Virus record (IMG/VR): IMGVR_UViG_3300047317_000335
Span: 1 to 40,212 of that record
Source: a virus
Direction: 5' to 3' (one strand)
DNA: 40,212 nt
The notes under the pieces were generated by a model, which saw only the letters and a list, made by a program, of their open reading frames with translations, searched no databases and had not been told where the DNA came from. Positions 3,303 to 39,099 of the stretch are shown here, in pieces. The first letter of the stretch is position 1; each line of letters begins with the position of its first letter. The translations under genes were made by a program, and so were the position numbers.

Positions 3303-3324
3303 CAACGTGCGAATTCACACACTG
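3303..3324. repeat. 22-bp palindrome, copy 1
   Basis: The core CGTGCGAATTCACAC ends in ACTG. It belongs to the 13-copy intergenic family and stands directly before the GTG starts at 3327/3333, so it opens the late module. Confidence 0.85.
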
Positions 3325-3332
3325 GGGTGAGC

Positions 3333-3830
3333 GTGAAAACTTCCTATCCGCTGCCCGGCGATTTTGGGCTTACCCGCATAGCTGGTGTTACCGGCAAGCT
3401 TGTGAGCGTCGGCCAGCGCGCTGTGGGGAGCGGTAGCTACTTCACGCACGCGTTCGTGTATGTCGGCAACGGCCACATCATTGAAGCGGAGCCCGGAGGC
3501 GCCCGACTGTCGACGCTGGCTCATGCGCTGGAAGGTGGCAAGCATGCTGTCTATTCGGATCTTGAGTTGACTGGCGCCCAGCGACGCGACATTGTTTCCG
3601 CCGCGCTTTCGCTCAAGGGGACGCCGTATTCCTTCCTTGACTATCTCGCCATCGGTGAGGCGCGCATTTTGCGCACCAAGCATCTTGAGCACTTTGTTGC
3701 TGACAGCGGCCACATGATTTGTTCGCAGTTGGTTGATGAGTCGTATAGGCGCGCTGGCATTGATCTTTTCCCCGGACGTCTTACGGGTGATGTTGCCCCT
3801 GGCGACCTTGCCCGGCTGATTGGAGCGTAG
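3333..3830 (+). CDS. Permuted papain-like peptidase (YiiX/NlpC-P60 type)
   Basis: About 165 aa. FTHAFVYVGNGHIIEAEPGG near residues 36-55 supplies the conserved His and Glu pattern of the permuted NlpC/P60 (YaeF/YiiX) family. MICSQLVDESYRRAG near residues 128-142 supplies the Cys. Members are amidases or acyl hydrolases; in actinophages such proteins occur near structural genes and may act on cell wall or lipid. GTG 3327 is an alternative start; 3333 is favoured because GGGGTGA then has room to act as ribosome-binding site and the distance from the palindrome fits the other genes. The stop codon abuts the next ATG. Confidence 0.75.
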   Translation: MKTSYPLPGDFGLTRIAGVTGKLVSVGQRAVGSGSYFTHAFVYVGNGHIIEAEPGGARLSTLAHALEGGKHAVYSDLELTGAQRRDIVSAALSLKGTPYSFLDYLAIGEARILRTKHLEHFVADSGHMICSQLVDESYRRAGIDLFPGRLTGDVAPGDLARLIGA

Positions 3831-4133
3831 ATGGCTGCGTGCGGTAATTGCGGATCATCTGCGCTGGTCCAGTGGGTTAGGCGCCCTACGGCGGATGAGC
3901 TTGCCGCTATCCCGGATAACCAGGGTGGTGCGGAGGCGACGGCCGAGAATACGACGGTGGCCGTATATGCGTGCGGCAGTCATGCTATTTCCCAAGAGCT
4001 TGCTGGCCTAGTCCACCAGGCTGTGTGCGCTGGTCCTACTAGCACTGTGCTACCCAACTGCACGTGTGCGCCCGTGCCATGGCCGGAGAGCGACCCGGAG
4101 CCCACTACTGGTCTGCCTGCTGGGTGGGTCTGA
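3831..4133 (+). CDS. Hypothetical zinc-ribbon-like protein, 100 aa
   Basis: The N-terminus MAACGNCGSSALVQW carries a CxxC pair, and the middle and end carry further Cys (VYACGSH, NCTCAP), consistent with a small metal-binding fold. The start immediately follows the previous stop and the end overlaps the HNH start by one base, so the three genes are translated together. Genes of this kind often lie between a lysis- or entry-type gene and HNH in actinophages; the function is unknown. Confidence 0.7.
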   Translation: MAACGNCGSSALVQWVRRPTADELAAIPDNQGGAEATAENTTVAVYACGSHAISQELAGLVHQAVCAGPTSTVLPNCTCAPVPWPESDPEPTTGLPAGWV

Positions 4134-4471
4134 TGGCATTGCGTCCCTGCCTCCGCTGTAAGCGTCTGACCCGCAATGCTTCCCGCTGTGACGTGTGCGA
4201 TGCACAGTACAGAGCAGTGCGTGAGCGGCAGCGTGGCAGTGCTAGTAAGCGTGGGTACACCAGTAGGTACCGGACCATAGCTAAGACAGTGGTATCAGAG
4301 CATGTGAGGTTGCATGGTCAGCGCTGTCCTGGTTGGGGTGTGCCTGCTCACCAGGCCACTGACCTAACCGTTGACCACATCATTCCCCTTGCTGCTGGTG
4401 GCACCCATGAGCGCGGCAACCTCCGTGTGTTGTGCCGGGGCTGCAATAGCAGGAAGCGTGACGCTGTGTGA
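4133..4471 (+). CDS. HNH endonuclease upstream of terminase
   Basis: A 112-aa protein. An N-terminal zinc finger (CLRCKRLTRNASRCDVC) is followed by the HNH core: LTVDHIIPLAAGGTHERGNL and VLCRGCNSRK. Start ATG 4133 overlaps the previous TGA. HNH proteins placed just before TerS in cos-packaging phages (for example HK97) work with terminase in cutting the genome at cos, so this copy is more likely part of packaging than a homing enzyme. Lys/Arg-rich segments agree with DNA binding. Confidence 0.9.
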   Translation: MALRPCLRCKRLTRNASRCDVCDAQYRAVRERQRGSASKRGYTSRYRTIAKTVVSEHVRLHGQRCPGWGVPAHQATDLTVDHIIPLAAGGTHERGNLRVLCRGCNSRKRDAV

Positions 4472-4674
4472 CGCTGCCTGGTGCATAGCCATGCGTAGCC
4501 AAGGCTCCAATCTTGCATATGTATGCATGGTGGGGGGCGGTACAGAGTCTGGGACAATGCGCCTTGCGGACCCGGCCCCTTAGGAGGCAAACGCCTCTGC
4601 GAAATTCTAGGGTGGGGGGTCTGGCCCCAAAAGCGCTCCGATGCGCATAATTATGCGAAAACGGAGGTGGCGGC
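4472..4674. other. Gene-free dyad-rich region, putative cos or terminase-binding site
   Basis: Between HNH and TerS there is no gene. Three dyads stand out: TGCATA-TG-TATGCA at 4514-4527, GAGGC-AAAC-GCCTC at 4584-4597, and CGCATAATTATGCG at 4644-4657. GGCCCC recurs before and after the middle dyad, and a G-run (GGTGGGGGG) lies between. The position suits a cos or TerS-recognition region, but the cut site itself cannot be seen. Confidence 0.4.
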
Positions 4675-5142
4675 ATGCCTGCTGGACGTCCGCCGGTACC
4701 TACGGAGCGTAAGCGCAAGCTGGGCAACCCTGGGCAGCGCAAAATGCCGGATCTTGCCGACACGCACGACGTTGCGCCAGTGACAGAGAGTGTCCCCGCG
4801 CACCTTGGCGAGGCTGGGGCAGGCATGTACCGGCGGATTACCGCTGGCGCCGCTTGGCTCGCTGAGACTGACAAGCCAACGCTTGAATTGCTGTGCGAAA
4901 AAGTCGACCGGCGAGAGCAGATGAAAGCTCAGCTAGCGCGCAGTGACCTGGTGCTCTTCACAGACAAAATGTACGCGTATCCCAACCCACTAGTCGGCAT
5001 GCTCAGCACCATTGAGACTGAGATTGCCAAGCTATTCAGCGCGCTGGGTCTGACGCCTACCGATCGCACGCGTATGGGGCTCGCTGAGGTTAAGGCGCGC
5101 AACGCGTTTGAGGACTTTCTAACCAAGCAGGCTGCCCGCTAG
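4675..5142 (+). CDS. terS: Terminase small subunit (P27 family)
   Basis: A 155-aa protein that recognises the phage genome end and recruits the large subunit. The N-terminus MPAGRPPVPTERKRKLGNPG is the P27-type start, followed by LGEAGAGMYRRI, WLAETDKPTLELLCE and the conserved C-terminal LGLTPTDRTRMGLAEV segment. CGGAGGTGG lies seven bases before the ATG. The location between HNH and TerL supports the call. Confidence 0.9.
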   Translation: MPAGRPPVPTERKRKLGNPGQRKMPDLADTHDVAPVTESVPAHLGEAGAGMYRRITAGAAWLAETDKPTLELLCEKVDRREQMKAQLARSDLVLFTDKMYAYPNPLVGMLSTIETEIAKLFSALGLTPTDRTRMGLAEVKARNAFEDFLTKQAAR

Positions 5143-5164
5143 CAGCGTGCGAATTCACACACTG
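5143..5164. repeat. 22-bp palindrome, copy 2
   Basis: CAGCGTGCGAATTC followed by ACACACTG. It starts one base after the TerS stop and ends 12 bases before the TerL start; the adjoining GGGGGG may serve as ribosome-binding site. Confidence 0.9.
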
Positions 5165-5176
5165 GGGGGCTGAAGG

Positions 5177-8813: not shown

Positions 8814-8835
8814 CAGCGTGTGAATTAACACGCTG
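8814..8835. repeat. 22-bp palindrome, copy 3
   Basis: CAGCGTGTGAATTAACACGC then TG. The last base of the core GAATTC is changed to A, yet AGCGTGT/ACACGCT pairs perfectly. It lies one base after the protease stop and 125 bases before the capsid gene. Confidence 0.85.
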
Positions 8836-10318: not shown

Positions 10319-10340
10319 CAGTGTGTGAATTCGCATGCTG
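10319..10340. repeat. 22-bp palindrome, copy 4, in a terminator-like hairpin
   Basis: CAGTGTGTGAATTC followed by GCATGCTG. Outside it, CGGGG pairs with TCCCG, so transcript through the site would form a longer stem. It lies 23 bases after the capsid stop. Confidence 0.9.
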
Positions 10341-14290: not shown

Positions 14291-17200
14291 ATGGGCGCGT
14301 TGCCTCCGGTATTTGTTGAATTCCTTGGCCGCTCCACTGGCTTTATGGCCACGGCCAAGGGAGTCAAGACAGAACTTGCCACCGTTGAGGCTGAAGGCGG
14401 CGGCAAAATGGCCAAGTTTGGCGCGGTGAGCAAGGCTGCGCTACTTGGTGTAGGTGTGGCCGCTGGCGTGGCTGCTGTCAAGACTGTGCACATGGCTGCC
14501 GACTTTCAAACGGCCATGACTCGCGTGCGCACTGGTGCCGGTGAGTCCGCGCAAAACATGAAAATGGTTGGTGACGGTGTACTCAACATGGCTGGCCGTG
14601 TCGGTCAGTCAACTGAGCAACTCACCAAGGGCCTTTACATGGTTGAGTCCGCCGGTTACCACGGATCTGATGCGCTGAAGGTGCTGGAAACCAGCGCCAA
14701 GGGGGCCAAGGTTGGTGCGGCGGAGCTGGGCACGGTGACTGACGCCGTGACCACGGCCATGAACGCTTACAAGCTGGGCGCTGGTGACACCACAACGGTC
14801 ATGAACGCCCTGGTTGCGACGGAGTCTGAAGGCAAGACCAACCTTGAGGCGCTGGCCGGATCAATGTCCGGCATTCTGCCGGTTGCTGCCGCCGCTCACG
14901 TTGGGCTCAATGAAGTCTTGGGCGCCATGGCCACCATGACGTCACAGGGTACGGATGCACGCGTTTCGGCGACGTATCTCCGGCAGACGATCGGCCAACT
15001 TTCCAACCCTTCAACCAAGGCTGCGGCCACTATGAAGGGGCTTGGGCTTGATGCCAACAAGGTTTCGCAGGAGCTTGGTAAAAGGGGTCTCGCTGCCACG
15101 CTGACGACGCTTACGGACGCCATCAAGAGCAAGATGGGCCCGGCTGGCACTGTGCTAATTAGCACACTGCAAAAGGCATCCAAGCACAGCAAGGACTTTG
15201 CGGGTGTGCTCCAGCATGCCAGCGGCAGCCAAAAGACATACATCGGCGCGCTGGCCACCATGGTGGGTGGTACCAAGTCCATGATGGGTGCTTTGCAGCT
15301 CACCGGACCGCACATGGACACGTTTAAGAAGAACGTGGATGGTATCGGCAAGCACATCCGCGATGGTGGCAAGAACATTGAAGGCTGGAGCGACGTTCAA
15401 AAGACGTTCAACCAGCGCATGGCTGAGGCCAAGGGCGCCATTGAGGCAGTCGGCATCAAGATTGGTACGGTGCTACTGCCGTACGCCACCAAGATGGCTG
15501 GTTGGCTGGCAAGCGGCGTCACGTGGATGACTAAGCACAAGGCAGCCGTTTATGCCCTTGCTGGAGCCATCGGCGCTATTCTGGCCGTTGGTCTGGCCGT
15601 GGCCACTGCCGCAGTAATTGAATTCACCGTGGCCATGTGGGAAACCGGTATTCCCGAAATTGTGCTTGGTGTCATGGCGCTGGCCGCTGGCATCATGTAC
15701 CTGTATTCGCACTGGAGCCAGGTTTCCGCGTGGCTGTCCGGCGAGTGGCAGACGGTCATGCACGCGCTTGGCGACGCGTGGCACTGGCTGGCTGACAAGA
15801 CCATGAGTGCCTGGCACACCATAGAGAATGGTGTGAAGACTGCTTGGCACGCGGTAGCCAATTTCTTTTCCTCCGCCTGGCACACGGTGACTGACCCGAT
15901 CGTCAAGGCTTGGAATTGGGTCTCTCACGCCACGTCGACGGTGTGGAACGCCATAGCCGGATTCTTCAAAAAGTGGTGGCCGCTACTGCTGCTCATCATC
16001 GCGCCGTGGCTAGTCGGGCTTATTTATCTCTGGAATCACTTTCACACGACCGTTTGGAATAAGGTCAAGTCGGTCTGGGATGCGGTTGCGGGATTCCTAA
16101 GCGATACCTGGGACGGCATAAAGTCGGTGGCCAAGTCCGTTTGGGCCTCCGTTCAGCGGAACATTGTTGATCCGATCATGGGCGTCTGGCACAAGCTAGT
16201 CAGCGTTTGGGACAGCGTATCGAGCTACCTTAGTGGCAAGTGGTCTGACCTAAAGGCCGTAGCGCTGATCACGTGGCTTGAGATCAAAAAGTCAATGATT
16301 GACCCGATCACGGGCGCTTGGCACACCATCACCAAAACGATGGGCCAAATAAAGGATGCGATATCTAAGAAGCTGGACGACGCGTGGACGGCTGTAAAGA
16401 ACATCGGCACCAAGTTTGCGACCATCGGTAAGGCAGTCGTTGACGGCATCGTTACCGGCATCACAAACGCGGCCAGCGGACTAATGGACAAGGTTGGGGG
16501 TCTGGCTAACGACGCACTTACCGCTGCTAAGCACGCGATCGGCATCAAGAGCCCCTCTCGCGCGTTCCGGGACCAGGTCGGCAAGTGGATACCGCTCGGC
16601 ATCGCCGAGGGCGTCAGGGCGCACGCCAGCCACGCGCACGACTCCGTCCGGGAAACCGCTACCGGCATGGTGAGCACTTTCTCTAACGCGCTGGGCATCG
16701 CCTCCCCCAGTAAGGTGTTCCGGCAGCTTGGTATCTGGGTTCATCAGGGCCTAGTCGACGGGCTAACTGGCTCGCTGTCGCAGGTGAAGAGCGCCGTCAA
16801 GAAGACTGAGACTGAGCTGATACAGGCTCGGAATCGGCTCGCTGACATGCTCGGCACGAAGGCTGGAAAGGGCCACAAGGGATGGATTAAGTCCCATGAG
16901 GCAGCGATCACGCACCTTGAGAGCATGGTGAAGCGCGAGGGTACACAGCTTGAGCGGCTGGCTACCCAGCGCGAGGGAATCGCCAAGCGGTTGAAGTCGG
17001 CGCAAGACCACCTCAAGAGCATTGCAAAGGAATGGGCAGCGACCCAAAAGGATGTTGCCAACAACATCATGCAGGGCGCCAGCATCATCACTCAGAGCCA
17101 GACTGATGGGCTCTCGCTGGACGCTGCCACTGTGGTGGATAACATGCAGCAGCAGGTACAGGCAGCCACGGAGTTTGCGGCCAACCTTGACGCGCTGCGT

Positions 17201-17828: not shown

Positions 17829-17850
17829 CAGTGTGTGAATTCGCATGCTG
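17829..17850. repeat. 22-bp palindrome, copy 5, in extended hairpin
   Basis: CAGTGTGTGAATTC followed by GCATGCTG. CCAGGGG and CCCCTGG on either side extend the pairing to 17822-17857, forming a 36-nt near-perfect hairpin after the tape measure gene. There is no T-run, so termination would be inefficient or factor-aided. Confidence 0.9.
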
Positions 17851-22706: not shown

Positions 22707-22741
22707 CAGTGTGCGAATTCACACGCTGGGGAGGGCATTTT
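22699..22741 (+). terminator. Terminator-like hairpin built on palindrome copy 6
   Basis: GCCCTCTCCAG pairs with CTGGGGAGGGC outside the palindrome and is followed by ATTTTG. The right arm GGGGAGGG is also the only ribosome-binding site for TTG 22740, so folding would both end late transcription and hide the next start. Confidence 0.7.
22707..22728. repeat. 22-bp palindrome, copy 6
   Basis: CAGTGTGCGAATTC followed by ACACGCTG. It forms the centre of the terminator hairpin at 22699-22741. Confidence 0.9.
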
Positions 22742-23349: not shown

Positions 23350-23371
23350 CAGTGTGCGAATTCGCACGGTG
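23350..23371. repeat. 22-bp palindrome, copy 7
   Basis: CAGTGTGCGAATTC followed by GCACGGTG. It stands just after the terminator at 23296 and before the next unit. Confidence 0.85.
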
Positions 23372-23380
23372 GCTGGACAC

Positions 23381-23410
23381 GGGGCACCGGACCCGCTAGT
23401 CTGGTGCCCC
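23381..23410 (+). promoter_or_regulatory. Leader hairpin GGGGCACC/GGTGCCCC
   Basis: An exact 8-bp stem with a 14-nt loop, ending 20 bases before the start of the 441-aa gene. It occupies the place that the start-associated element holds before other genes and may be a functional counterpart. Confidence 0.45.
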
Positions 23411-23430: not shown

Positions 23431-24756
23431 ATGGCCGAGCGCAACGAACTCACGGTGTGGCTGGACGACACCACCTCGCACCGTGGCTTCATGCGCATCG
23501 GCAAGGGTAAGTCTGCCCACCTCACCAAGTACAACGACGAAAGCCTCTGCGGGCGCCTCATGTTCCCCGATGCGGGTGGCGCCTACCTTGACAGCGTGGA
23601 TGTGGCCAACATGCCGAACATCTGCGCAACGTGCTGGAAGATCATGGAAAAGGAAGCGGGAGAGATCATGGCCAAGAACACGCAGACCACCGAAACGGTT
23701 GAGGTTGACGAGAGCCTGGCTGACGCGCTTGGCGACGCGCCGGAGCAGACGCCGGAGGAAGCCACCATGGAGCAGATCCTCGCCAACATCGAGCGTGCCC
23801 GGTCGCTCGCTGAGGCCGAGAACACTGAGGGGCTCGCGGAGCTGGACAAGGAAACCAAGGCGCTCATTTCCTCGCTGCCGCGCGGTGGGAAGACGCCGGA
23901 CGGTAAGACGTGGGCGGGATTCAAGGCCAAGGCTGGCCAGGACTTCCGGCAGGCGGCAGCCGCGCAGCCCAAGACTGACGGCCCGTCAAAGGCCGTGGCC
24001 ACCAAGGCGGAGGCTGCCCCGGACGTCACCACGGACTACACCATGACGGAAGGCGTCAAGGAGATTGTTGACAAGGGCGCCGCGCTGGTCCGCGAGGGTG
24101 TCCAGCTCCACGTCAAGGGCGCGCAGACTGCCCGCGCTATCGCTGGGATGCTGCTGGACACGCGCCGCCGGATCATCACCAAGGACGGCGTGCCTGACCT
24201 CAAGGCCCACACGCAGGCTGCCCGCAACGCGTCTACCGACATGTACGCGGCTGCCGAAAAGGTGCTGGCGGAGGAGTCCGGCGACACGGAGCACGCCAAG
24301 GCGCTGGTGCGCAAGCTGTCGCAGGCCGTGCGCAATCAGATGTCTGACGTGCTGGTTGGCTACGTCAAGGAGTTGGACACGGCCAGCGAGGAATGGGCGG
24401 AGCACTACGGCGCGGTTGCCAAGGCGCACCCGGAGCTGACCCCCAGCGAGGCGGTTTTCAAGTTCTACGACATCAACCCCGTTTCGCGCCGTGAGCTTGC
24501 CGCCCAGCGACAGGCGGAGCGCAGCACCAAGCTGGCGGAGCTGGAGGCTGCGGCCAAGAGTGGTGACGCTGAGGCCGCTGAAGAGGCGGAGGAGCTGAAG
24601 GCCAAGACCGTTCAGGAGCGCATTGCCGGTGACATCCAGACGGCGGAAAAGGCGCTCAAGGCGGCTGTGAAGGCTGCGGCGGAGCTGAGCGAGGAAGACA
24701 AGAACGCGCTCAAGGCCAAGGTGGCGGAGCTGATGGCGCTGGTTGCCGCACTGTAA
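23431..24756 (+). CDS. Large charged, Ala/Glu/Lys-rich protein, 441 aa
   Basis: I do not recognise this family. ATG 23431 follows AGGAGACGAA. Residues 1-75 look like a small domain with two Cys pairs or singles (ESLCGRLMF, NICATCWKIME), perhaps a zinc ribbon. The next 110 residues are acidic and low complexity. Residues about 200-360 are mostly helical (TEGVKEIVDKGAALVREGVQ, DMYAAAEKVLAEESGDTEHA), and the C-terminus is a long Lys/Glu/Ala coiled coil. It is the first gene of the rightward early module, behind a terminator and a palindrome. A DNA-binding or host-takeover role is possible but unproven. Confidence 0.85.
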   Translation: MAERNELTVWLDDTTSHRGFMRIGKGKSAHLTKYNDESLCGRLMFPDAGGAYLDSVDVANMPNICATCWKIMEKEAGEIMAKNTQTTETVEVDESLADALGDAPEQTPEEATMEQILANIERARSLAEAENTEGLAELDKETKALISSLPRGGKTPDGKTWAGFKAKAGQDFRQAAAAQPKTDGPSKAVATKAEAAPDVTTDYTMTEGVKEIVDKGAALVREGVQLHVKGAQTARAIAGMLLDTRRRIITKDGVPDLKAHTQAARNASTDMYAAAEKVLAEESGDTEHAKALVRKLSQAVRNQMSDVLVGYVKELDTASEEWAEHYGAVAKAHPELTPSEAVFKFYDINPVSRRELAAQRQAERSTKLAELEAAAKSGDAEAAEEAEELKAKTVQERIAGDIQTAEKALKAAVKAAAELSEEDKNALKAKVAELMALVAAL

Positions 24757-27151: not shown

Positions 27152-27173
27152 CAGCGTGCAAATTCACACACTG
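27152..27173. repeat. 22-bp palindrome, copy 8
   Basis: CAGCGTGCAAATTC followed by ACACACTG. It ends 12 bases before the GTG of the Gp3-like gene, so a bound protein would directly affect expression of that gene. Confidence 0.85.
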
Positions 27174-28612: not shown

Positions 28613-28616
28613 GCGC

Positions 28617-28910: not shown

Positions 28911-28953
28911 GCCCGGTAGGTGGTGCTCGCGCACTGCCCGCCGGGCCCTTTTT
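28911..28953 (+). terminator. Rho-independent terminator
   Basis: GCCCGG pairs with CCGGGC around an inner GTG...GCAC hairpin and is followed by TTTTT. It closes the Gp3-like operon. Confidence 0.85.
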
Positions 28954-28970
28954 GGTTTGGAGATCCGTTG

Positions 28971-29717: not shown

Positions 29718-29728
29718 CGGGAGGTCAC

Positions 29729-29863
29729 ATGCTTCGCAAGAGTCGCACGCTGGGCTGGGACGCATGCCGCTGTAACGGGTGCTACGACCGGAAGCGAGAC
29801 AAGCGTCTGTGGCGCCGGATCGCACGCCGGAAGGAAGAGCGAGCATGGCGCGCTGAGGCGTAG
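29729..29863 (+). CDS. Small basic Cys-containing protein, 44 aa
   Basis: ATG 29729 follows GGGAGGTCAC, a good ribosome-binding site. The product has CRCNGC, then an Arg/Lys-rich helix (RDKRLWRRIARRKEERAWRA). It could bind nucleic acid or metal. It is the last gene before start-associated element copy 6. Unknown family. Confidence 0.6.
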   Translation: MLRKSRTLGWDACRCNGCYDRKRDKRLWRRIARRKEERAWRAEA

Positions 29864-29866
29864 CGA

Positions 29867-29886
29867 GGGAGCGCTTGGGACCCTAC
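29867..29886 (+). repeat. Start-associated 20-bp element, copy 6 (diverged)
   Basis: GGGAGCGCTTGGGACCCTAC, with two changes from consensus in the TGTGCCCC half. It ends 21 bases before TTG 29908. Confidence 0.65.
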
Positions 29887-29907
29887 GGAGCCGGAAGGGA
29901 GAAAACG

Positions 29908-32331: not shown

Positions 32332-32429
32332 ACAGATGGTTTGTCGAAATGATCGCCGCATGGCTGCTGGTGTTCGGCGTGCTGTGTCCGGTGGCACTGC
32401 TCATTGAGCACTGGCTAGGTCTTTGGTAG
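32328..32429 (+). CDS. 33-aa membrane microprotein
   Basis: GTG 32328 overlaps the primase TGA by four bases. The product is mainly one hydrophobic helix, MIAAWLLVFGVLCPVALLI, followed by EHWLGLW. It ends just before palindrome copy 9. Role unknown; the fourth such tiny membrane protein in this phage. Confidence 0.55.
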   Translation: MNRWFVEMIAAWLLVFGVLCPVALLIEHWLGLW

Positions 32430-32436
32430 TCCGCCG

Positions 32437-32458
32437 CAGCGTGTGAATTCGCACAGTG
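32437..32458. repeat. 22-bp palindrome, copy 9
   Basis: CAGCGTGTGAATTC followed by GCACAGTG. It separates the primase unit from the polymerase unit. Confidence 0.85.
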
Positions 32459-32465
32459 AGGGTGG

Positions 32466-32485
32466 GGGAGTCTTTGGGCCCCCTC
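32466..32485 (+). repeat. Start-associated 20-bp element, copy 7 (diverged)
   Basis: GGGAGTCTTTGGGCCCCCTC. The flanking AGGGTGGGGG pairs with CCCCCTCACCCT, so here the element forms a strong hairpin. It ends 18 bases before ATG 32504. Confidence 0.6.
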
Positions 32486-32503
32486 ACCCTGGGAGGTACA
32501 CAC

Positions 32504-34354
32504 ATGAGGGAATTCCGCTACGCCGTTGCCGGTGACCCGGTCGTTGTCAACGTGCCCGAAACCGAAGATGACTTGCGCGCATTCTTCGCTTGGTGCCAGC
32601 AGGCAGACCAGCGAGGCATCAAGATTGCGCTGGACACGGAGACTAGTGGGCTGGACATCTTCAGCCCCGGCTATGCGCTCCGCACTGTGCAGTTTGGCGA
32701 CGCGCACACAGCGTGGGTCATCTGCTGGGAATGGGGCGGGCGCTTCCGCGAGGCTGCTCTCTGGGTGCTGCGTCGGATGCGTGCCTTCCTGGTGCACAAC
32801 GCTGCCTTTGACTGGCTGGTGTTGGACCGGCATGCCGGAGTGCCGCTGGAAGAACTCAGCGCCAAGACCACGGACACTCGCCTACTCGCTGCCCTGGTGG
32901 ACCCGCGCCAGCCCCAAGATGGGGGCATCGGCACTGGCCTTAAGCCCCTAAGCGGGTACTACGTTGACCCGGCTGCCCCGGACACCCAAGGGGACCTAAC
33001 GGCCATCTTCCGGGAGCAAGGACTCACCAAGTCCACTGGTTTTGCACGCATCGACATTCGGAACCCCACCTACCTGCTTTACGCCGGACTAGACGTCATC
33101 CTCACTGCACGGCTGGAGCCCAAGCTACGGAGTGAGCTGACCCGGCTGGACGTGCGCCCCGCACTTGAGCCGTACGAGCATGAGTTGGCGTACATCTGCG
33201 CCCACATGATGCGCACTGGCTTTCTGCTGGACACGGAGTACACGACTGCGCTGGCGTCCAACTTGTCAGCGGAGGAGCAGCGTTACCGCGAGGTGGCCGG
33301 ACGGTACGGCGTTGAAAACGTCAACTCCACAGCGCAGATTGCTGACGCGCTGCGCGGCATGGGCGAGGATCTGACGGAGCGCACTGCCTCCGGCGCGCTG
33401 AAGGTCGATAAGGCAGTGTTGCTTGACCTTGCTGACCTAGACCGTGACTGGAAGCGCGTTGGTGCCCGTACGGCCAATCCGCTGGCGGATGCTGTGATCC
33501 GTGCCAAGCGGTCCGGCAAGTGGCGGAGCGCGTATGCGGACACGTTCCTTGAGGTCATGAGCGCCGAGGGTCGCGTGCACCCGTTCGTGAACAGTTTGCA
33601 AGCACGGACGGCACGTATGTCCATCACCCGTCCAGCGCTGCAAACGCTGCCGTCAAGTGACTGGGTTATCCGGCGTGCGCTGCTGGCGGATGAGGGCCAC
33701 GTCATGGTGTCCACGGACTTCACTGCCGTTGAAATGCGTGTGTTGGCCGCGCTGGCGGGCGTGCGCAAGATGCAGGAAGCCATTGCCAGCGGTGCGGACC
33801 TTCATGACTTCACTGCCTCGCTGGTGTTCGGGCCGGACTTCACCAAGAAACACCGGAAGATTGCCAAGGGCATTGGTTTTGGCAAGGTCTACGGAGGCGG
33901 AGCGGCAAGCATCGCGCGGCAGACCGGTGCGGACGAGAATGACGTAAGGCGCGCGCTGGCTGCCTATGACGCTGTCTATCCGGAAATTAAGCGCTTCAGT
34001 AACAAGCTCCAGCGCGAGGCGAGGTGGGCCGGTTGGGTTGGTCTGAGCGCTACTGGGCGCCGTCTGCCGGTCGACCGTAACCGTGCTTACGCCATCGTGA
34101 ATTACGTGGTGCAGTCGACGGCGCGTGACTGTCTCGGCAACGCGCTCATTCAGGCCAAGGAAAAGGGTCTGTTGCCTCTAATGCGGCTGCCTATCCATGA
34201 CGAAATTCTCGCGTCCGTTCCGCGCGAAAACGCCACGGAGGTTGCTCGGGAGTTTGAGCAGTGCATGACCTTCAGCCTTGGCGGAGTACGCATTGAGGCG
34301 GAGGCGGAAATAGGTGGCCGGAGCTGGGGAAGCCTGTACGGAGCCGACGCATAG
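32504..34354 (+). CDS. DNA polymerase I (family A)
   Basis: A 616-aa replicative polymerase. The 3'-5' exonuclease domain shows ALDTETSGLD near 42-51, VHNAAFDWLVLD near 98 and LLYAGLDVILTARL near 190. The polymerase domain shows motif A VSTDFTAVEMRVLAALA near 402, motif B-like HRKIAKGIGFGKVYGG near 450, and motif C LPIHDEILASV near 563. The size and the lack of a 5' nuclease domain match actinophage polymerases. GGGAGGTACACAC precedes the ATG. It is separated from the primase by a palindrome and start-associated element, so its level can be set independently. Confidence 0.95.
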   Translation: MREFRYAVAGDPVVVNVPETEDDLRAFFAWCQQADQRGIKIALDTETSGLDIFSPGYALRTVQFGDAHTAWVICWEWGGRFREAALWVLRRMRAFLVHNAAFDWLVLDRHAGVPLEELSAKTTDTRLLAALVDPRQPQDGGIGTGLKPLSGYYVDPAAPDTQGDLTAIFREQGLTKSTGFARIDIRNPTYLLYAGLDVILTARLEPKLRSELTRLDVRPALEPYEHELAYICAHMMRTGFLLDTEYTTALASNLSAEEQRYREVAGRYGVENVNSTAQIADALRGMGEDLTERTASGALKVDKAVLLDLADLDRDWKRVGARTANPLADAVIRAKRSGKWRSAYADTFLEVMSAEGRVHPFVNSLQARTARMSITRPALQTLPSSDWVIRRALLADEGHVMVSTDFTAVEMRVLAALAGVRKMQEAIASGADLHDFTASLVFGPDFTKKHRKIAKGIGFGKVYGGGAASIARQTGADENDVRRALAAYDAVYPEIKRFSNKLQREARWAGWVGLSATGRRLPVDRNRAYAIVNYVVQSTARDCLGNALIQAKEKGLLPLMRLPIHDEILASVPRENATEVAREFEQCMTFSLGGVRIEAEAEIGGRSWGSLYGADA

Positions 34355-34371
34355 CGGGGGAGGGGTGCGGC

Positions 34372-34623
34372 ATGTTCTACCGCCGGAAGCGTACGCGTGT
34401 CGCACCCTCGCTGGACGAAATATACGCACAGTGGGCTGAAGCGGACGCGTGGGCATGTATCTACTGCGGAGCGCCATGGGAGCACGTGGAGCACTTCCAG
34501 CCGATCGCGCGTGGGGGAGTCACGGAGCTGGGGAATCTCTGGCCTGCGTGTGCGCTGTGCAACCTAACGAAAGCGGACCGTGACCCCTGGGAGTACCTCC
34601 GGTCACTAGGCGTAGCGGTTTAG
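34372..34623 (+). CDS. HNH endonuclease, 83 aa
   Basis: The core is compact: CIYCGAPWEHVEHFQPIARG, then LGNLWPACALCNLTKADRDP. The first His-type residue and the Asn/His positions are present, and two CxxC pairs bind zinc. GGGGAGGGGTGCGGC precedes the ATG. It follows DNA polymerase immediately and ends one base before palindrome copy 10. It is the shortest of four HNH proteins here. Confidence 0.85.
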   Translation: MFYRRKRTRVAPSLDEIYAQWAEADAWACIYCGAPWEHVEHFQPIARGGVTELGNLWPACALCNLTKADRDPWEYLRSLGVAV

Positions 34624-34624
34624 G

Positions 34625-34646
34625 CAGCGTGCGAATTCGCACAGTG
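34625..34646. repeat. 22-bp palindrome, copy 10
   Basis: CAGCGTGCGAATTC followed by GCACAGTG, one base after the HNH stop. It opens the 380-base gene-free region before the sigma-like gene. Confidence 0.9.
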
Positions 34647-34975
34647 CCGTTGCCAAGTCTTTATTCTGACGCCGTGTCGCACGTGCAAACCCGCTGTACC
34701 GAAGGTAACCAGGTCCCGTGGCATATGCCGTTCCGTGGATCTGAAGGCGGGAACCCCGTTCGCACCTTAGATGGTCCGTCAGTTAGCGCCTACGACCGTA
34801 GTTAGTAGCCATCTTCACAGCTTCCATACATGCCGTTACACGCCTACGTTCACACCACAACGAACGGCGGCAGCAAAGGCCACGCCCCGCCGGGAGTCGC
34901 AACCTCCCTGGTGGGGCTTTGTCTTGCCCCGAACTCAACTGTGACCCGCTTCACAGTCGTGGCTTGCCCCTTTCA
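34647..34975. promoter_or_regulatory. Gene-free region upstream of sigma-like gene
   Basis: No gene is convincing here. It holds the palindrome GGCATATGCC near 34724, the terminator at 34884-34920, and ACTGTGA-CCCGCT-TCACAGT at 34938-34957, a 7-bp-arm dyad that looks like an operator. CTTGCCCC occurs twice (34923-34930 and 34963-34970). TATTCT at 34662, near palindrome 10, could be a -10 box but has no matching -35. The region seems to be a control region for the sigma-like gene. Confidence 0.45.
34884..34920 (+). terminator. Rho-independent terminator
   Basis: GCCCC and GGGGC enclose GGGAG paired with CTCCC, followed by TTTGTCTT. It lies upstream of the sigma-like gene and ends any transcript from the polymerase unit. 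Confidence 0.8.
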
Positions 34976-34995
34976 GGGAGCGCTTGTGCCCCTAG
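34976..34995 (+). repeat. Start-associated 20-bp element, copy 8
   Basis: GGGAGCGCTTGTGCCCCTAG, ending 32 bases before ATG 35028. GTGCC can pair with GGCAC just beyond it. Confidence 0.8.
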
Positions 34996-35027
34996 GCACC
35001 TGAACCCCCGAGAAAGCAGGCAAAACC

Positions 35028-35837
35028 ATGATCGACATCACCATTGAGCAGATCCGCGCGGCAGCCGCGAACGACCTTGCGGCAGTAACGGCAGTGCTCG
35101 CGGAGTTTGAGCCCCACATCGGGCGCCTCGCCAACAAGTACGCGACTAGCGGCGGACGATACGACGCGGACCGCGCGGAAGAGCTTGCGCAGGCTGGCCG
35201 CATAGCGCTGTGGGAGCGCATCGGGGAATTCAACGGTGACAGCGTCGGCGAATTCGTCAGCTACATGGACAAGTGGATACGCGGCACCATGGCTGGCGAA
35301 CGGCGCGACGACTCGCACAACGGGGGCGTGAGTCGCCAGACGGTATGGCGCTTCAGCAAGTGCCTTGACGTCACCGGAGGCGACCCGTACGCGGCGGAGC
35401 GCGAGGCGGTACGGCCGGACGGATGCCTTGGCGGTGAGCGCATGACCCCGGAAACGGCGTACGCGGCGCGGCTGGCATGGCAGGGAGTTGCGTACCTTGA
35501 CGCTCCGGGCGCCAGCGGGAATGAGGGAACCCTCGGCGAGACCATAGCCACCACGTACGGCGTGCCGGATGACCTGGTTGAGGCGGCAGACATCAACGCT
35601 GAGCGCCGGAGGGTGCAGCGCAACGCCGTACACGCCACGCTGGAGCGCATGGGACGGCAGGCTGCTTTCACGCTGCGTGCCACGTACGGGATTGACCCGG
35701 TACCCCACATGGAGAGTGACGCCGAGATTGGCGCAGCGCTGGGAATCGACCACAAGCGCATTCGCCGCATCCGCAGCATGGGCAAGGACCGTTTCCGCGA
35801 GTTGTACCTCGCTGGCGCTGCCGCTCTCGCCGAATAA
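35028..35837 (+). CDS. Sigma-factor-like protein, 269 aa
   Basis: The N-terminal half resembles sigma-70 region 2: LAEFEPHIGRLANKYATSGG, then EELAQAGRIALWERIGEFNG (a DLxQEGxxGL-like element) and FVSYMDKWIRGTMAGERRDD (the helix that melts and reads -10). The C-terminal 50 residues resemble region 4 helix-turn-helix: DAEIGAALGIDHKRIRRIRS, ending GKDRFRELYLAGAAALAE. The middle is a linker of about 110 residues. It could redirect host RNA polymerase to phage promoters. AGAAAGCAGGC precedes the ATG. A non-sigma DNA-binding regulator remains possible. Confidence 0.7.
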   Translation: MIDITIEQIRAAAANDLAAVTAVLAEFEPHIGRLANKYATSGGRYDADRAEELAQAGRIALWERIGEFNGDSVGEFVSYMDKWIRGTMAGERRDDSHNGGVSRQTVWRFSKCLDVTGGDPYAAEREAVRPDGCLGGERMTPETAYAARLAWQGVAYLDAPGASGNEGTLGETIATTYGVPDDLVEAADINAERRRVQRNAVHATLERMGRQAAFTLRATYGIDPVPHMESDAEIGAALGIDHKRIRRIRSMGKDRFRELYLAGAAALAE

Positions 35838-35870
35838 GTAGCCACCCCACCACCCAAGGGAGAAACGCTC

Positions 35871-36026
35871 ATGTGTTACACCACCAAGACTGGCCACGCC
35901 GTTCAGTTCACGCGCGTCGGCACCGGATACGACGTCCACACGCGGAACGCCAAGGGCGAAACCATTTCGACTGTCTGGCTCACCGCTGACGAATCGCGCA
36001 CCCTCATGACGGCGCTTGAGGCGTAG
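35871..36026 (+). CDS. Small hypothetical protein, 51 aa
   Basis: ATG 35871 follows AAGGGAGAAACGCTC. The product MCYTTKTGHAVQFTRVGTGY then DVHTRNAKGETISTVWLT appears to be a small beta-rich domain with a helical end (ADESRTLMTALEA). It is probably transcribed with the sigma-like gene, 33 bases behind it. No family recognised. Confidence 0.65.
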   Translation: MCYTTKTGHAVQFTRVGTGYDVHTRNAKGETISTVWLTADESRTLMTALEA

Positions 36027-36029
36027 GCC

Positions 36030-36203
36030 GTGGCGGCTATAGATGGCTCTGTGAACGACCCAACGGCCACCGGTGGGGTGGCGGACCGGGCAGACGTCTG
36101 GCGGGCCGCTAGAGCGCTACTGAGCGCCTCCGGCATGGCCAGCGAGGCACGACCGGATGACGTGCTGGAGCTAGCGCGCTTCCTGGCTGGCGACGACTTC
36201 TAA
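36030..36203 (+). CDS. Small acidic helical protein, 57 aa
   Basis: GTG 36030 is three bases after the previous stop. The C-terminal part is helical (ADVWRAARALLSASGMASEA, PDDVLELARFLAGDDF), reminiscent of small phage proteins that accompany nucleotide genes. It ends just before the 13-bp hairpin at 36208. Start choice and function are uncertain. Confidence 0.55.
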   Translation: MAAIDGSVNDPTATGGVADRADVWRAARALLSASGMASEARPDDVLELARFLAGDDF

Positions 36204-36207
36204 GACT

Positions 36208-36247
36208 GGGGCAGTGAGCGGGTGGCCAGTACCTCGCTCACTGCCCC
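36208..36247 (+). terminator. Strong hairpin, possible terminator or attenuator
   Basis: GGGGCAGTGAGCG is exactly complementary to CGCTCACTGCCCC, a 13-bp stem with a 14-nt loop and no T-run. Its outer arms GGGGCAGTG/CACTGCCCC match the arms of several palindrome copies, but the centre is different. It precedes ThyX by 23 bases. Confidence 0.6.
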
Positions 36248-36270
36248 GCACCACGTAGGAAGGGGCGCAT

Positions 36271-36966
36271 ATGCGCATTGAGATCCTGGCAAGTACGTAC
36301 TTGCACCGCCCGATACTGGAAGACGCGTACGGGTACGACCCGGCACCGAAGGCAGGTACCAAGGGCGCGGACGCACTGAGCGAGGCAGCCGGACGCATCT
36401 GCTATCTGTCGTGGGAGCGACCCAATCCGGCGACTGCCGACAATGCCGGATACCTCGGCAACATCCTCCGGCAGGGGCATCACAGCGTGCTAGAACATGC
36501 CTCCGTTACCTTCCTGGTGCGCGGTGTGTCTCGCTCGCTGCTCGCTGAGCTGACCCGGCACCGGCACTTGAGTTTCAGTGTGGTGTCACAGCGCTACGTG
36601 GACTACGCGGCGACCGAGCCCGTCATCCCTCCGGCGCTCCGTGGCAGTGAGGGGGAGGCTTTCCTCCGCAGTGCGTACGCGTACGCCGTTGGCCGTTACC
36701 AATCCGCTGTAAAGGAACTGCGCGCCAAGGGTTTGAGCCGTAAGCAGGCTCGCGAGGCTGCCCGCGCTGTACTGCCAAATGCCGCGCCCGTCGACATGGT
36801 GGTTACCGGAAACCTGCGTGCGTGGCGTGATGTGCTGGGCAAGCGGAATTCTCCGGCGGCGGATGCTGAGATACAGGAATTCGCTGGGGAAGTGCTTGCA
36901 CTACTGCACAGCATTGCGCCGAGCAGTTTTCAGGACTTTGCGCCGGACAACAAAACTGATGGGTAA
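36271..36966 (+). CDS. thyX: Flavin-dependent thymidylate synthase
   Basis: 231 aa. Converts dUMP to dTMP with FAD and methylene-tetrahydrofolate. The ThyX signature [14 protein letters not shown] (RHRxxSxxxxSxR) is near residues 92-105. [13 protein letters not shown] near 70-82 and [20 protein letters not shown] near 185-204 are also conserved. AGGAAGGGGCGCAT precedes the ATG. With dCMP deaminase (37316) and dNMP kinase (22740) it gives the phage its own dTTP supply. Confidence 0.95.
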
Positions 36967-36968
36967 CC

Positions 36969-37112
36969 ATGTACGTACTCACTGAGGGTTGGTACGAGGA
37001 TGAGACCGTTACGGGTGTCGTCTATAGCGAGGATGAGGCGCGCGACTGGGAGCGCGATAACCAATACCGTTCATACTACGGGCCGTTTGAGCCCGGAATG
37101 CCGGAGGCTTAG
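36969..37112 (+). CDS. Small acidic protein, 47 aa
   Basis: ATG 36969 lies two bases after the ThyX stop. The product is acidic and aromatic-rich (MYVLTEGWYEDETVTGVVYS, DWERDNQYRSYYGPFEPGMP). It is probably co-translated with ThyX. No family recognised. Confidence 0.6.
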   Translation: MYVLTEGWYEDETVTGVVYSEDEARDWERDNQYRSYYGPFEPGMPEA

Positions 37113-37114
37113 CC

Positions 37115-37255
37115 ATGATGGATATGTTTAGTGAGGCGCGCCAAATGGCCGCTCAGTTCCGCGAGGTATTCGAAGCCTTCATATTCGTTGGCTTCACCGA
37201 GCAGCAGGCCATGCAAATGGTGCTTGCCCTCATGTCTGCGCCTATCCGTGGCTAG
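37115..37255 (+). CDS. Small Met-rich helical protein, 46 aa
   Basis: ATG 37115 lies two bases after the previous stop. The product is helical with seven or more Met (MMDMFSEARQMAAQFREVFE, EQQAMQMVLALMSAPIRG). Its stop overlaps the next GTG region by eight bases. Function unknown. Confidence 0.55.
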   Translation: MMDMFSEARQMAAQFREVFEAFIFVGFTEQQAMQMVLALMSAPIRG

Positions 37256-37319
37256 GGTGCTCTCATTCCTCATAGGCGCGCTGGTGATGCTCTCGCTGAC
37301 CCCCGTGACTGCCCGGTGA
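37248..37319 (+). CDS. 23-aa membrane microprotein
   Basis: GTG 37248 lies within the end of the previous gene, and the TGA overlaps the deaminase GTG by four bases. The product MARVLSFLIGALVMLSLTPV plus TAR is one hydrophobic helix. The overlapping arrangement supports translation, but the call is modest. Confidence 0.4.
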   Translation: MARVLSFLIGALVMLSLTPVTAR

Positions 37320-37699
37320 CCAACCGGCCCAACTGGGATGAGTATTTCCTCGCTGGCGCAGCGTGGGCAGCGAGTCGCGCGGACTGCACCCGTCGCAAGG
37401 TGGGCGCCATCCTGGTCAACGCGCGGCATGAGGTACGCGGAGTGGGGTACAACGGCGCCCCGGCTGGCGTGCCCGGCTGTCTCTCCGGCAACTGTCCGCG
37501 AGGCAGGCTGACAGCGGAGCAGTGCGCCCCAAATAGTGACTACGCCAACTGTGTTGCCGACCATGCGGAGCGCAACGCTATCCGCCACTGTGACCCGGCG
37601 GAGCTTGCCGGATCCACGCTGTACGTGACGGATGAGCCGTGCCCCTCATGCTGGACGCTCATTCACGCGGCTGGCATCAAGCGTGTAGTTACGCCGTAG
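37316..37699 (+). CDS. dCMP deaminase
   Basis: 127 aa. Deaminates dCMP to dUMP, the substrate of ThyX. Zinc-binding motifs are VADHAERNAI (HAE, with catalytic Glu) near 82-91 and TDEPCPSCWTLI (PCxxC) near 106-117. RRKVGAILVN and GYNGAPAGVPGC are typical of the family. GTG 37316 overlaps the microprotein stop. The nearby ThyX completes the pathway. Confidence 0.95.
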   Translation: MTNRPNWDEYFLAGAAWAASRADCTRRKVGAILVNARHEVRGVGYNGAPAGVPGCLSGNCPRGRLTAEQCAPNSDYANCVADHAERNAIRHCDPAELAGSTLYVTDEPCPSCWTLIHAAGIKRVVTP

Positions 37700-37700
37700 G

Positions 37701-37722
37701 CAGCGTGCAAATTCACACACTG
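37701..37722. repeat. 22-bp palindrome, copy 11
   Basis: CAGCGTGCAAATTC followed by ACACACTG, one base after the deaminase stop and 15 bases before the lipoprotein ATG. Confidence 0.85.
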
Positions 37723-37737
37723 AGTTAGGGATGGAAC

Positions 37738-37953
37738 ATGAGAAAGCTTGCTCTCGCCGCGCTGGCTGGGGTGGTGCTGTCGCTCGCTGCGTGCGCACCC
37801 ACGGATGACGCTGGAGACCCGTTGCCCAGCGCCACGACGCATGAGGGTGACTCCGCGTACTACCCGAACGTTGGGACGCTTCCGCACAGCGCTGCGCCCC
37901 ACCACAAGGGGCATACCAAGCCGCTCCGCGTGTGCTCCAGCGCCAAGAAATAG
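37738..37953 (+). CDS. Predicted lipoprotein, 71 aa
   Basis: A classic lipoprotein signal: MRKLALAALAGVVLSLAAC, with LAAC lipobox and Cys near residue 19. The mature part is short and rich in His, Pro and Ser (SATTHEGDSAYYPNVGTLPH, HHKGHTKPLRVCSS). Lipoproteins encoded by temperate phages can alter the host surface or block superinfection. AGGGATGGAAC precedes the ATG. It stands alone between palindrome copies 11 and 12, so it may be expressed from the prophage. Confidence 0.8.
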   Translation: MRKLALAALAGVVLSLAACAPTDDAGDPLPSATTHEGDSAYYPNVGTLPHSAAPHHKGHTKPLRVCSSAKK

Positions 37954-37957
37954 GTTT

Positions 37958-37997
37958 CGGGCCCGTGCTTCAGCTTGCGCGCTGGGGTGCGGGCCCG
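37958..37997 (+). terminator. Possible hairpin terminator
   Basis: CGGGCCCG occurs at 37958-37965 and 37990-37997; since it is its own complement, the two copies can pair. No T-run follows, so function is uncertain. Confidence 0.35.
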
Positions 37998-38040
37998 TAG
38001 TGTCTGCGACGTAAGCACAACAACGACGGAGGCACACACC

Positions 38041-38226
38041 ATGCGATTCACCATCAAGCCCCAGCCGGTCTACTCCCGCACCAACGGCGCGCACGTCGCC
38101 ACCAACTTTTACGTGGTCGACTCCATCGGCGACAATGGGCGCCCCAAGATGCTGACGAACTGGGCATTTGGCACGATTGATGCGGCCATGGATCACGCGG
38201 ACCTGCTTGAGGCGCACTGGGGCTGA
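38041..38226 (+). CDS. Small hypothetical protein, 61 aa
   Basis: ATG 38041 follows GGAGGCACACACC. The product begins MRFTIKPQPVYSRTNGAHVA and continues NFYVVDSIGDNGRPKMLTNW, then a helical IDAAMDHADLLEAHWG. It resembles short alpha-beta proteins common in actinophage early regions. Function unknown. Confidence 0.7.
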   Translation: MRFTIKPQPVYSRTNGAHVATNFYVVDSIGDNGRPKMLTNWAFGTIDAAMDHADLLEAHWG

Positions 38227-38231
38227 AAGGT

Positions 38232-38253
38232 CAGCGTGCGAATTCACACACTG
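38232..38253. repeat. 22-bp palindrome, copy 12
   Basis: CAGCGTGCGAATTC followed by ACACACTG, six bases after the previous stop. Confidence 0.9.
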
Positions 38254-38290
38254 GGCCCGGCACTCCGCTTGACCGGGGGTTGCCGGGCCC
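38253..38290 (+). terminator. Hairpin next to palindrome copy 12
   Basis: GGGCCCGGCA is exactly complementary to TGCCGGGCCC, and TTACTG follows. It directly adjoins palindrome copy 12 and precedes the 239-aa gene by 43 bases. Confidence 0.6.
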
Positions 38291-38332
38291 TTACTGTGTC
38301 CGGAGTACGGCAACAAGGGAGGGGAGGGCGCA

Positions 38333-39052
38333 ATGTTCACCGCTGGCGACCGGGTCACCTATGCAGGCAACTTGGCTGAAGTGCGGGGCATGCGTGGAGT
38401 CGTCAAGGGACCCGGCACGCGGGATGGGAGGGTCACAGTCGAGTTTCCGGCCCTTGGTGTCGTTCTTGACATGAGTGATACCGTTTTGGAAAACGACGCA
38501 CCGGAGGAAGACGAAATGGGCAAGGCGCGCACCACCACCGTTACGCACCCGGACGGGACCGTTTCCACGCGCAGCAGCGCAAGCGCCACCTACACACACG
38601 CGGTTGAGCAGCGCGAGGATGTATGGGCCACGGCCAAGCTGCACCGGAATGTGGCAGCTGATAAGCGCGAGGAAAAGACACGGTTCATCGCCGCTGTGCG
38701 TGCTGGCCGGATTGCCGTACGCAAGGACTCTAAGCATTTCGATTCGGTCTACCTGCTTGGGGAGGGTCGCGAGGAATGGTGGTTGGGCAGCAATGACTAC
38801 GCCATGCCGTCGATTGGCCGCGAGGCTTCCACGCTGGACCGTAAGACGGCTATCCGTGAGTGGCTGGCCAACGCTGACTCGCTGGCCGCAACCTTTGACC
38901 GTCATGCCGATAAGGCGGAGGCCGGGTCGCAGTACAGCTATGGCGTGGTGCGCTGGTCCATGAGTCACGAGAATGCCACCAAGGGGCTCCGCGAGTTTGA
39001 GGGGCGCAACCTCCCCACCAGCACGTTTCGGGTGGTAGCTGTCGACGCGTAG
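38333..39052 (+). CDS. Hypothetical protein, 239 aa
   Basis: ATG 38333 follows AGGGAGGGGAGGGCGCA. The N-terminal 50 residues suggest a small SH3-like or KOW-like barrel: MFTAGDRVTYAGNLAEVRGM, RGVVKGPGTRDGRVTVEFPA. The remaining part has EEWWLGSNDYAMPSIGREAS and helical, charged segments. It is the last gene before the repeat-rich control region and ends in a palindrome-terminator. It is a possible control protein, but there is no classic helix-turn-helix. Confidence 0.75.
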   Translation: MFTAGDRVTYAGNLAEVRGMRGVVKGPGTRDGRVTVEFPALGVVLDMSDTVLENDAPEEDEMGKARTTTVTHPDGTVSTRSSASATYTHAVEQREDVWATAKLHRNVAADKREEKTRFIAAVRAGRIAVRKDSKHFDSVYLLGEGREEWWLGSNDYAMPSIGREASTLDRKTAIREWLANADSLAATFDRHADKAEAGSQYSYGVVRWSMSHENATKGLREFEGRNLPTSTFRVVAVDA

Positions 39053-39065
39053 CGGGCAGCGTGAG

Positions 39066-39099
39066 CGGCCAGTGTGTGAATTCACACACTGGCCGTTTT
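39066..39099 (+). terminator. Terminator formed by palindrome copy 13
   Basis: CGGCC and GGCCG extend the palindrome to a 30-bp perfect inverted repeat at 39066-39095, followed by TTTTC. It lies 14 bases after the 239-aa gene. Confidence 0.8.
39070..39091. repeat. 22-bp palindrome, copy 13 (perfect)
   Basis: CAGTGTGTGAA followed by TTCACACACTG, exactly self-complementary. This is the best copy in the window. Confidence 0.95.

Follow-up and report, generated by a model that had tools for sequence, protein, structure and literature searches.

The window analyzed here is the whole of IMG/VR virus record IMGVR_UViG_3300047317_000335, a stretch of 40,212 nucleotides, and the element under study is a 22-bp palindrome repeated in the gaps between its genes. 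The window phage is a virus of soil bacteria related to Streptomyces phage phiC31. Its proteins, identified through PHROGs and Pfam, include a serine-type integrase, terminase, portal, protease, capsid, tape measure and endolysin, followed by a deoxynucleoside monophosphate (dNMP) kinase, the c repressor, an exonuclease (Cas4-like by the annotation of its relatives), a gp3-like recombination directionality factor (RDF), primase, polymerase, a sigma factor, ThyX and deoxycytidine monophosphate (dCMP) deaminase, in the gene order of phiC31. The integrase, RDF, tRNA and gene order all match phiC31, and an Rfam scan returned two tRNAs only. Identity of the primase with phiC31 gp9a was 61.8%, its best matches being Streptomyces phages at up to 65.0%, and megablast of positions 1-25000 found no DNA match to named phages.

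Palindrome copies in the window

Thirteen copies of the palindrome begin at 3303, 5143, 8814, 10319, 17829, 22707, 23350, 27152, 32437, 34625, 37701, 38232 and 39070, exactly where an earlier note on this DNA had placed them. Compared with the 22-bp consensus CAGYGTGYGAATTCRCACRCTG, four of the 13 have no mismatch and nine have one; the best score in 20 order-2 Markov shuffles of the window was five mismatches, reached by four matches. Allowing up to three mismatches gave 14 places in the record, compared with zero for the reversed control pattern. Many near-identical symmetric intergenic repeats are a trait of phiC31-type systems of c repressor and conserved inverted repeats (CIRs), and the 13 copies with zero or one mismatch show that trait in the window. 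By our own gene calls all 13 strong copies are entirely extragenic, with 10.7% of the 22-mers in the window being extragenic, so that the earlier statement that every copy lies in a gap holds for these and fails for a 14th, weaker copy at 15148, which has three mismatches and lies within the tape-measure gene. Proximity to a preceding stop codon, described earlier as usual, was found within 0–5 bases in six of 13 copies and within 25 bases in ten, the other three lying 43, 58 and 105 bases away.

The copy at 39070 is the sole perfectly symmetric one, as had been reported, and the further claim that differences among copies preserve near-symmetry was only partly right. Across the 14 copies, the two positions that vary as Y/R are Watson-Crick paired across the dyad in just 8 of 28 cases, and the commonest combination, C/A (13/28), is unable to pair in a transcript. 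These positions thus vary like bases tolerated by a protein and not like the pairs of a stem.

The exact motif was found in IMG/VR in one contig only, that of a close relative (L001/L013). A single-copy match in genome_contigs, from Paenibacillus alkaliterrae, was taken as chance (about 0.2 expected). Ten of the 13 strong copies have an EcoRI site as the core of the palindrome; GAATTC occurs 32 times across the 40 kb, giving no sign that this phage avoids EcoRI sites.

The c repressor gene and its upstream region

The gene at 23431, one of several candidate regulators listed in the earlier note, was identified as a c repressor gene through its match to PF25746 (Phage_Repressor_c, "Streptomyces phage repressor protein c"; E 1.7e-55) and also to phrog_19947. 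It sits between the dNMP kinase and Cas4-like genes, downstream of the structural genes, as in phiC31, and its frame stays open upstream to a TTG at 23194. Its product matches the annotated immunity repressors of Rowa, Dubu, Nesbitt and AbbeyMikolon over part of its length at 30.6–33.1% identity, and it has 23–57% identity with 17 other c proteins. No PDB structure matched the fold at E 0.001 or better, no solved relative was found by sequence (best E 0.047), BFVD returned the Shawty homologue only, and a search of IMG/VR for relatives via c gave 10 pattern matches with none confirmed. The best VIA-align score (Z 7.6, over one helical segment of c) was set aside as within the chance range for helical proteins.

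One base after the copy at 23350 there is, by eye, a promoter-like sequence CTGGAC-N18-TAGTCT, and c begins 59 bases past the palindrome. A similar arrangement of palindrome and -35-like sequence was seen by eye before c in L057, L058, L063, L077, L066 and L067, and phiC31 and TG1 have an additional copy within the annotated c frame. A consensus scan for promoters and terminators over 22600-40212 gave one promoter-like and 14 terminator-like sites, compared with 2.9 and 12.0 in shuffles; its sigma-70 model missed the predicted c promoter and placed no promoter-like site beside any palindrome in that interval. Between the end of the dNMP kinase gene and the 23350 copy, close to the latter, a hairpin tailed by TTTT is visible by eye at 23292-23340, and a T-rich tail likewise precedes the palindrome upstream of c in several relatives. 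The hairpin at 23292-23340 is absent from the terminator list of the 22600-40212 scan.

Palindromes in related phages

Relatives comprised ten named phages and 65 IMG/VR loci, the latter found with capsid and polymerase queries, and their palindromes were sought by k-mer counts and palindrome clustering. Clustering chose GC-rich noise at one or both settings for TG1, Dubu, Nesbitt, Euratis, Rowa and some IMG/VR loci, and in such cases the core was picked from the k-mer table or from the other setting. Rowa has a repeated imperfect palindrome that was kept out of the tables, Dubu yielded no trusted palindrome, and Shaeky, scored by a poor 14-mer, was counted as empty. Equivalent gaps were compared in a table of 51 locus rows of 77 loci; L001 (same contig as L013), L005, L008, L012, L040, L047, L050 and 19 loci under 8 kb were left out, and loci on one contig (L015/L057, L027/L058, L043/L075 and L021/L032) were kept as separate rows. 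Search spans were set by hand at about 170 bp beside a gene, 230 before the capsid gene and 480 before the sigma gene.

Most phiC31-type relatives with enough sequence have their own dispersed palindrome of 18–23 bp with letters differing from those of the window, among them phiC31 (CCTACTCACGTGAGTAGG), TG1 (GGCACTCACGTGAGTGCC), L057 (GGTAGTAAATTTACTACC) and L058 (GTGGGTAAATTTACCCAC). In L013, with 98% capsid identity, the window motif is present unchanged, letter for letter, at all five covered intergenic sites. The closest contigs that show c are L057/L015 (c 52%, primase 87%) and L058/L027 (c 57%, primase 85%), which carry GGTAGTAAATTTACTACC and GTGGGTAAATTTACCCAC, respectively, in the gaps used by the window and at near-equal offsets. 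Measured in the relatives from the 18-bp core, the offsets for L057/L015, L058/L027 and the window are 127, 126 and 125 bp before the capsid gene, 28, 24 and 23 after it, 51, 49 and 45 before the polymerase, and 382, 384 and 381 before the sigma gene. Eleven of the 14 distinct sites of L057/L015 are in gaps that the window uses, two of them both between dNMP kinase and c. In phiC31 itself its own palindrome occupies seven of the window's 13 gaps, namely those before the large terminase and after the capsid, tape measure, dNMP kinase, primase, polymerase and dCMP deaminase. The earlier note had named absence of the motif from equivalent gaps of related phages as evidence against an operator system. 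The window's sequence is indeed lacking there in most relatives, yet the equivalent gaps are occupied by palindromes that belong to the relatives themselves, and this strengthens an operator interpretation instead of refuting it.

The copies in the window, numbered as putative operators, are listed below with the c gene and its predicted promoter; fractions are relative loci holding their own palindrome in the equivalent gap over testable loci.

3303..3324, operator 1, 1 mismatch, 2 bp before the g3 start; 14/18
5143..5164, operator 2, gap between small and large terminase genes; 16/27, L013 row included
8814..8835, operator 3, gap between protease and major capsid genes; 21/22, L013 row included
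10319..10340, operator 4, gap between capsid gene and g12; 16/21, L013 row included
15148..15169, 14th operator-like copy, within the tape-measure gene, 3 mismatches, weaker than the others; similar copy in L013 at 11929
17829..17850, operator 5, gap between tape-measure gene and g20; 13/15, L013 row included
22707..22728, operator 6, before the dNMP kinase gene; 0/20
23350..23371, operator 7, gap between dNMP kinase and c, abutting the -35 of the predicted c promoter; 19/22
23373..23402, + strand, predicted c promoter, CTGGAC-N18-TAGTCT, by eye
23431..24756, + strand, c repressor gene, 441 aa if translation starts at the ATG whose ribosome site is best
27152..27173, operator 8, gap between g29 and the RDF gene; 18/25
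32437..32458, operator 9, gap between primase and DNA polymerase genes; 26/28
34625..34646, operator 10, gap between HNH and sigma genes, 381 bp before the sigma gene; 27/29, at 368-448 bp
37701..37722, operator 11, after the dCMP deaminase gene; 8/14
38232..38253, operator 12, gap between g45 and g46; 1/2
39070..39091, operator 13, perfectly symmetric, after g46; 2/2

A shared frame was evident when 21 other even-centred rows (20 distinct cores) were aligned on the dyad and represented by their majority letters, some of which were below 60%: C at 11 bases from the dyad in 18 of 21, A at 10 in 18, C or G at 5 in all 21 and A at 2 in 20, with middle positions variable. The window half-site CAGYGTGYGAA satisfies all four positions, which places its motif, with a new specificity, among the operators of the phiC31 family. 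Odd-centred palindromes, with half-sites one base further apart, were observed in L060, L059, L075, L043 and L009 (CCTACTAGTcACTAGTAGG; CCCACTCACcGTGAGTGGG), and Euratis has an odd centre like that of L060.

Hairpins at a minority of sites

When 42-base windows around each of the 14 sites were folded, those at 10319, 17829, 22707 and 39070 gave -28 to -33 kcal/mol, with z from -7.5 to -8.6, and the other ten gave z from -3.8 to +1.1, 3303 and 27152 being no better than shuffles. The four sites are as follows.

10319, operator 4 hairpin, + strand RNA, -28.1 kcal/mol, z -8.6; placed by the arm test in class "mid" and not in "strong"
17829, operator 5 hairpin composite, -32.8 kcal/mol, z -7.5; strong arms
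22707, operator 6 hairpin composite, -33.1 kcal/mol, z -8.2; ATTTTG after the stem
39070, operator 13 hairpin composite, -30.5 kcal/mol, z -8.3; strong arms, then TTTTCTT

The same feature was evaluated at 238 sites from 20 phages picked for clear even-centred motifs. At least six pairs outside the 22-mer were present at 23% of the sites, compared with a mean of 10% in a swapped-flank control (maximum of 200 shuffles, 14%). Where a strong arm was defined as at least five of six Watson-Crick pairs directly outside the 22-mer, 47 sites were strong (17829, 22707 and 39070 among them), 53 middle (including 10319) and 138 weak. Imperfect core pairs on the gene-sense strand were G-T in 32 cases and A-C in 7 at strong-arm sites (p 7e-5), 24 and 14 at middle sites, and 35 and 51 at weak-arm sites; strong and weak arms differed by Fisher test at 1.6e-5, or 7e-4 with the window excluded, the classes having been defined without the counted core pairs and the sites of related phages not being independent. 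Counted per phage, G-T exceeded A-C at strong sites in 12 of 13 informative phages (sign p 0.003), with 6 against 8 at weak sites. Four or more T among the eight bases after the stem occurred at 14 of 47 strong sites (6/47 on the other side) and at 4 and 7 of 138 weak sites. In the window alone the contrast was 7/8 against 8/20 (p 0.04), a value that is partly circular because folding, a procedure that itself favours paired positions, was used to choose the four hairpin sites.

A GC-rich stem followed by a T run is thus not a feature of every copy, strong hairpins being present at 4 of 14. A T-rich tail is visible by eye at 22707 and 39070; the terminator scan of 22600-40212 lists 22707 (as 22697-22738) and not 39070, in a list of 14 that is no longer than the 12.0 expected by chance. 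The minority of sites with strong arms, 47 of 238 in 20 phages, look like composites of an operator and an RNA hairpin.

An alternative explanation could be that the palindromes are solely RNA elements, intrinsic terminators or processing hairpins, and not protein operators at all. The strong folding of the four sites, the preference for G-T over A-C and the more frequent presence of at least four T after the stem at strong-arm sites (14/47 vs 4/138) are in its favour, but it would not account for the ten less strongly folding sites in the window, for a commonest degenerate combination that cannot pair in a transcript, or for letters that are constant within a phage and changed wholesale between phages, neither of which a terminator needs. 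We consider it highly improbable. In phiC31-type phages one palindrome may carry two codes at once. The first would be a DNA operator that changes its specificity between phages inside a fixed 22-bp frame, and the second, at about one fifth of sites, an RNA hairpin selected in the direction of transcription; the road-block by the repressor and the terminator would be one element and would have to change together each time the operator does. Taken as a whole, the case for and against this two-code proposal seems to us evenly balanced.

Other elements in the window

A second dispersed, directional motif, GGGNGCGYTTGTGCCC, was observed on the + strand at 2326, 17857, 22687, 25642, 26704, 29867, 32466 and 34976, mostly 20–60 nt before gene starts, one of which is uncertain; the copy at 2326 precedes a tRNA. 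Five copies are exact, and at three or fewer mismatches there are 15 places with 6.8 expected, a number reached by one of 100 shuffles. By eye, relatives have apparent versions before the same genes (phiC31 GGTTGCCGACTCCCTTAC, L057 GGAAGTGYTTGCGCTCC, Shady GCTTAACCCACACCCTCTCTG). The motif is possibly a phage-specific promoter of early genes, used together with the sigma factor of the phage. Its interpretation as a hairpin was set aside, as the phiC31 version is not visibly self-complementary by eye.

Ahead of the sigma gene lies a 404-base non-coding stretch (34624-35027) with operator 10 at its beginning, at the distance conserved among relatives in the list above; the stretch had no Rfam match. 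The operator-like copy is inside the tape-measure gene in the window and L013, while in L015 (15308) and L017 (11553) a copy is found at the start of that gene. The tape-measure protein of the window (14291-17812) has 63% identity with that of L013 in its best segment, and other matched proteins have 92–100%, so that this gene looks like the product of mosaic exchange. Finally, L021 and L032 share contig IMGVR_UViG_3300046690_000279 (81,716 bases), which has two different phiC31-type capsid regions at 83 and 80% identity to the window's capsid and represents either two tandem prophages or a chimeric assembly.

Discussion

The patterns detected indicate with high probability that the palindrome is the operator of the window's own c repressor (23431-24756), in a CIR system of the phiC31 type with a new sequence specificity. 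The suggestion that a single regulator acts on dispersed sites of a temperate phage is supported by the phiC31-like genome, the c gene and the relatives' palindromes in the same gaps; the 14th copy, the predicted c promoter beside 23350 and the hairpin-forming subset are additions to what the earlier note described. In a lysogen c, presumably a symmetric dimer given its symmetric site, would bind the 13 (14) sites. At 23350 it would sit against the -35 of its own predicted promoter and so regulate itself, and at other sites, many right after stop codons, it could block initiation or elongation and thereby silence lytic and structural gene blocks. At 17829, 22707, 39070 and probably 10319, longer inverted repeats foldable in the + strand transcript might also serve as RNA hairpins or terminator-like elements. 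Binding, silencing and termination are proposed here from homology and the phiC31 precedent.

Several observations weigh against this interpretation. Three of the 14 distinct sites of L057/L015 fall in gaps other than those of the window; the gap before dNMP kinase (22707) was empty in all 20 testable relatives and that between the terminase genes in 11 of 27; and these gap-sharing counts are raw numbers over rows that are not independent. In several loci, clusters from Markov shuffles equal or exceed the chosen palindrome cluster, so that what supports the palindrome there is its repeated presence in equivalent gaps. The arrangement that follows the c operator in phiC31 and TG1 differs from that of the window. 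The DNA-reading part of c was not located in a structural model in which residues 1-102 had a predicted local distance difference test (pLDDT) score under 50. Lastly, no co-divergence of operator with c beyond genome-wide relatedness was found: the correlation of operator similarity with protein identity was no better for c (r 0.41) than for polymerase (0.49) or for dNMP kinase (0.43), leaving a specific co-divergence with c unsupported.

The regulator could also be a different protein of the phage, such as g46, g47 or the sigma factor: there are sites near g46 and g47, and the co-divergence result does not single out c. However, no repressor apart from c was recognised, one operator lies directly against the promoter predicted for c, phages such as L072 and L077 have palindromes and c with no match to g46 or g47, and phiC31 offers a precedent, making a regulator other than c very unlikely. 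Dispersed palindromes are also a feature of the plasmid-phage N15, and the sites could conceivably function in partition (parS-like), replication or packaging. Against this, no ParA or ParB was seen among the PHROGs-scanned proteins (a few small open reading frames lay outside the scan), the integrase and RDF indicate integration, and the sites are tied to gene boundaries and to the c gap; such a function has an almost negligible probability.

The precedent for c operators is phiC31, whose primary literature includes Ingham 1994, Wilson 1995 and Smith 1999. In phiC31-type c/CIR systems the operator is tied to autoregulation of c. The window shares with phiC31 a c-family repressor, symmetric palindromes mostly in intergenic gaps, use of seven of 13 gaps, most of the 22-bp frame and one copy just before c. 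The two differ in the letters at variable positions (CAGYGTGYGAATTC... in the window, CCTACTCACGTG... in phiC31), in number, phiC31 having 16 copies at four or fewer mismatches including the one in its annotated c frame, and in the window's copies before dNMP kinase and inside the tape-measure gene. Multiple dispersed repressor sites in phiC31 and L5 (18–30) and three repressor isoforms in phiC31 have been described (PMC4557955). The earlier note had likened the palindromes to both L5 stoperators and phiC31 repeats. The likeness to phiC31 stands, the sites being symmetric and accompanied by a c repressor. L5 and cluster A stoperators are similarly numerous and dispersed, with a consensus for each phage and most of them not at promoters, but they are asymmetric, 13–14 bp and mostly in one orientation (PMC6550527, PMC13313380); the 22-bp symmetric sites of the window would thus work like L5-type stoperators without being of that type. 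Evolution of repressor-stoperator specificity in cluster A has been published (PMC6550527). The repressor-stoperator system of R4-like Streptomyces phages, which belong to another phage group, shares dispersed intergenic repressor sites (PMC10276819). In the open-licence literature searched, nothing was found that deals with the diversity of operators, or with their combination with hairpins, among phages of the phiC31 type, and such work may exist elsewhere.

The operators themselves belong to the known phiC31 kind, and the more novel part is the operator-hairpin composite together with the family-wide frame. A probable repressor-operator pair has been identified for an undescribed phiC31-type phage, and the phiC31-type family is seen to have about twenty operator sequences, the majority of which share one frame and recur in equivalent gaps. 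The operator code of c, and the puzzle of how a dozen dispersed sites keep pace with changes in one repressor, become directly testable, and the operator-hairpin composites hint at a way in which repressor sites spread over a genome could be combined with termination.

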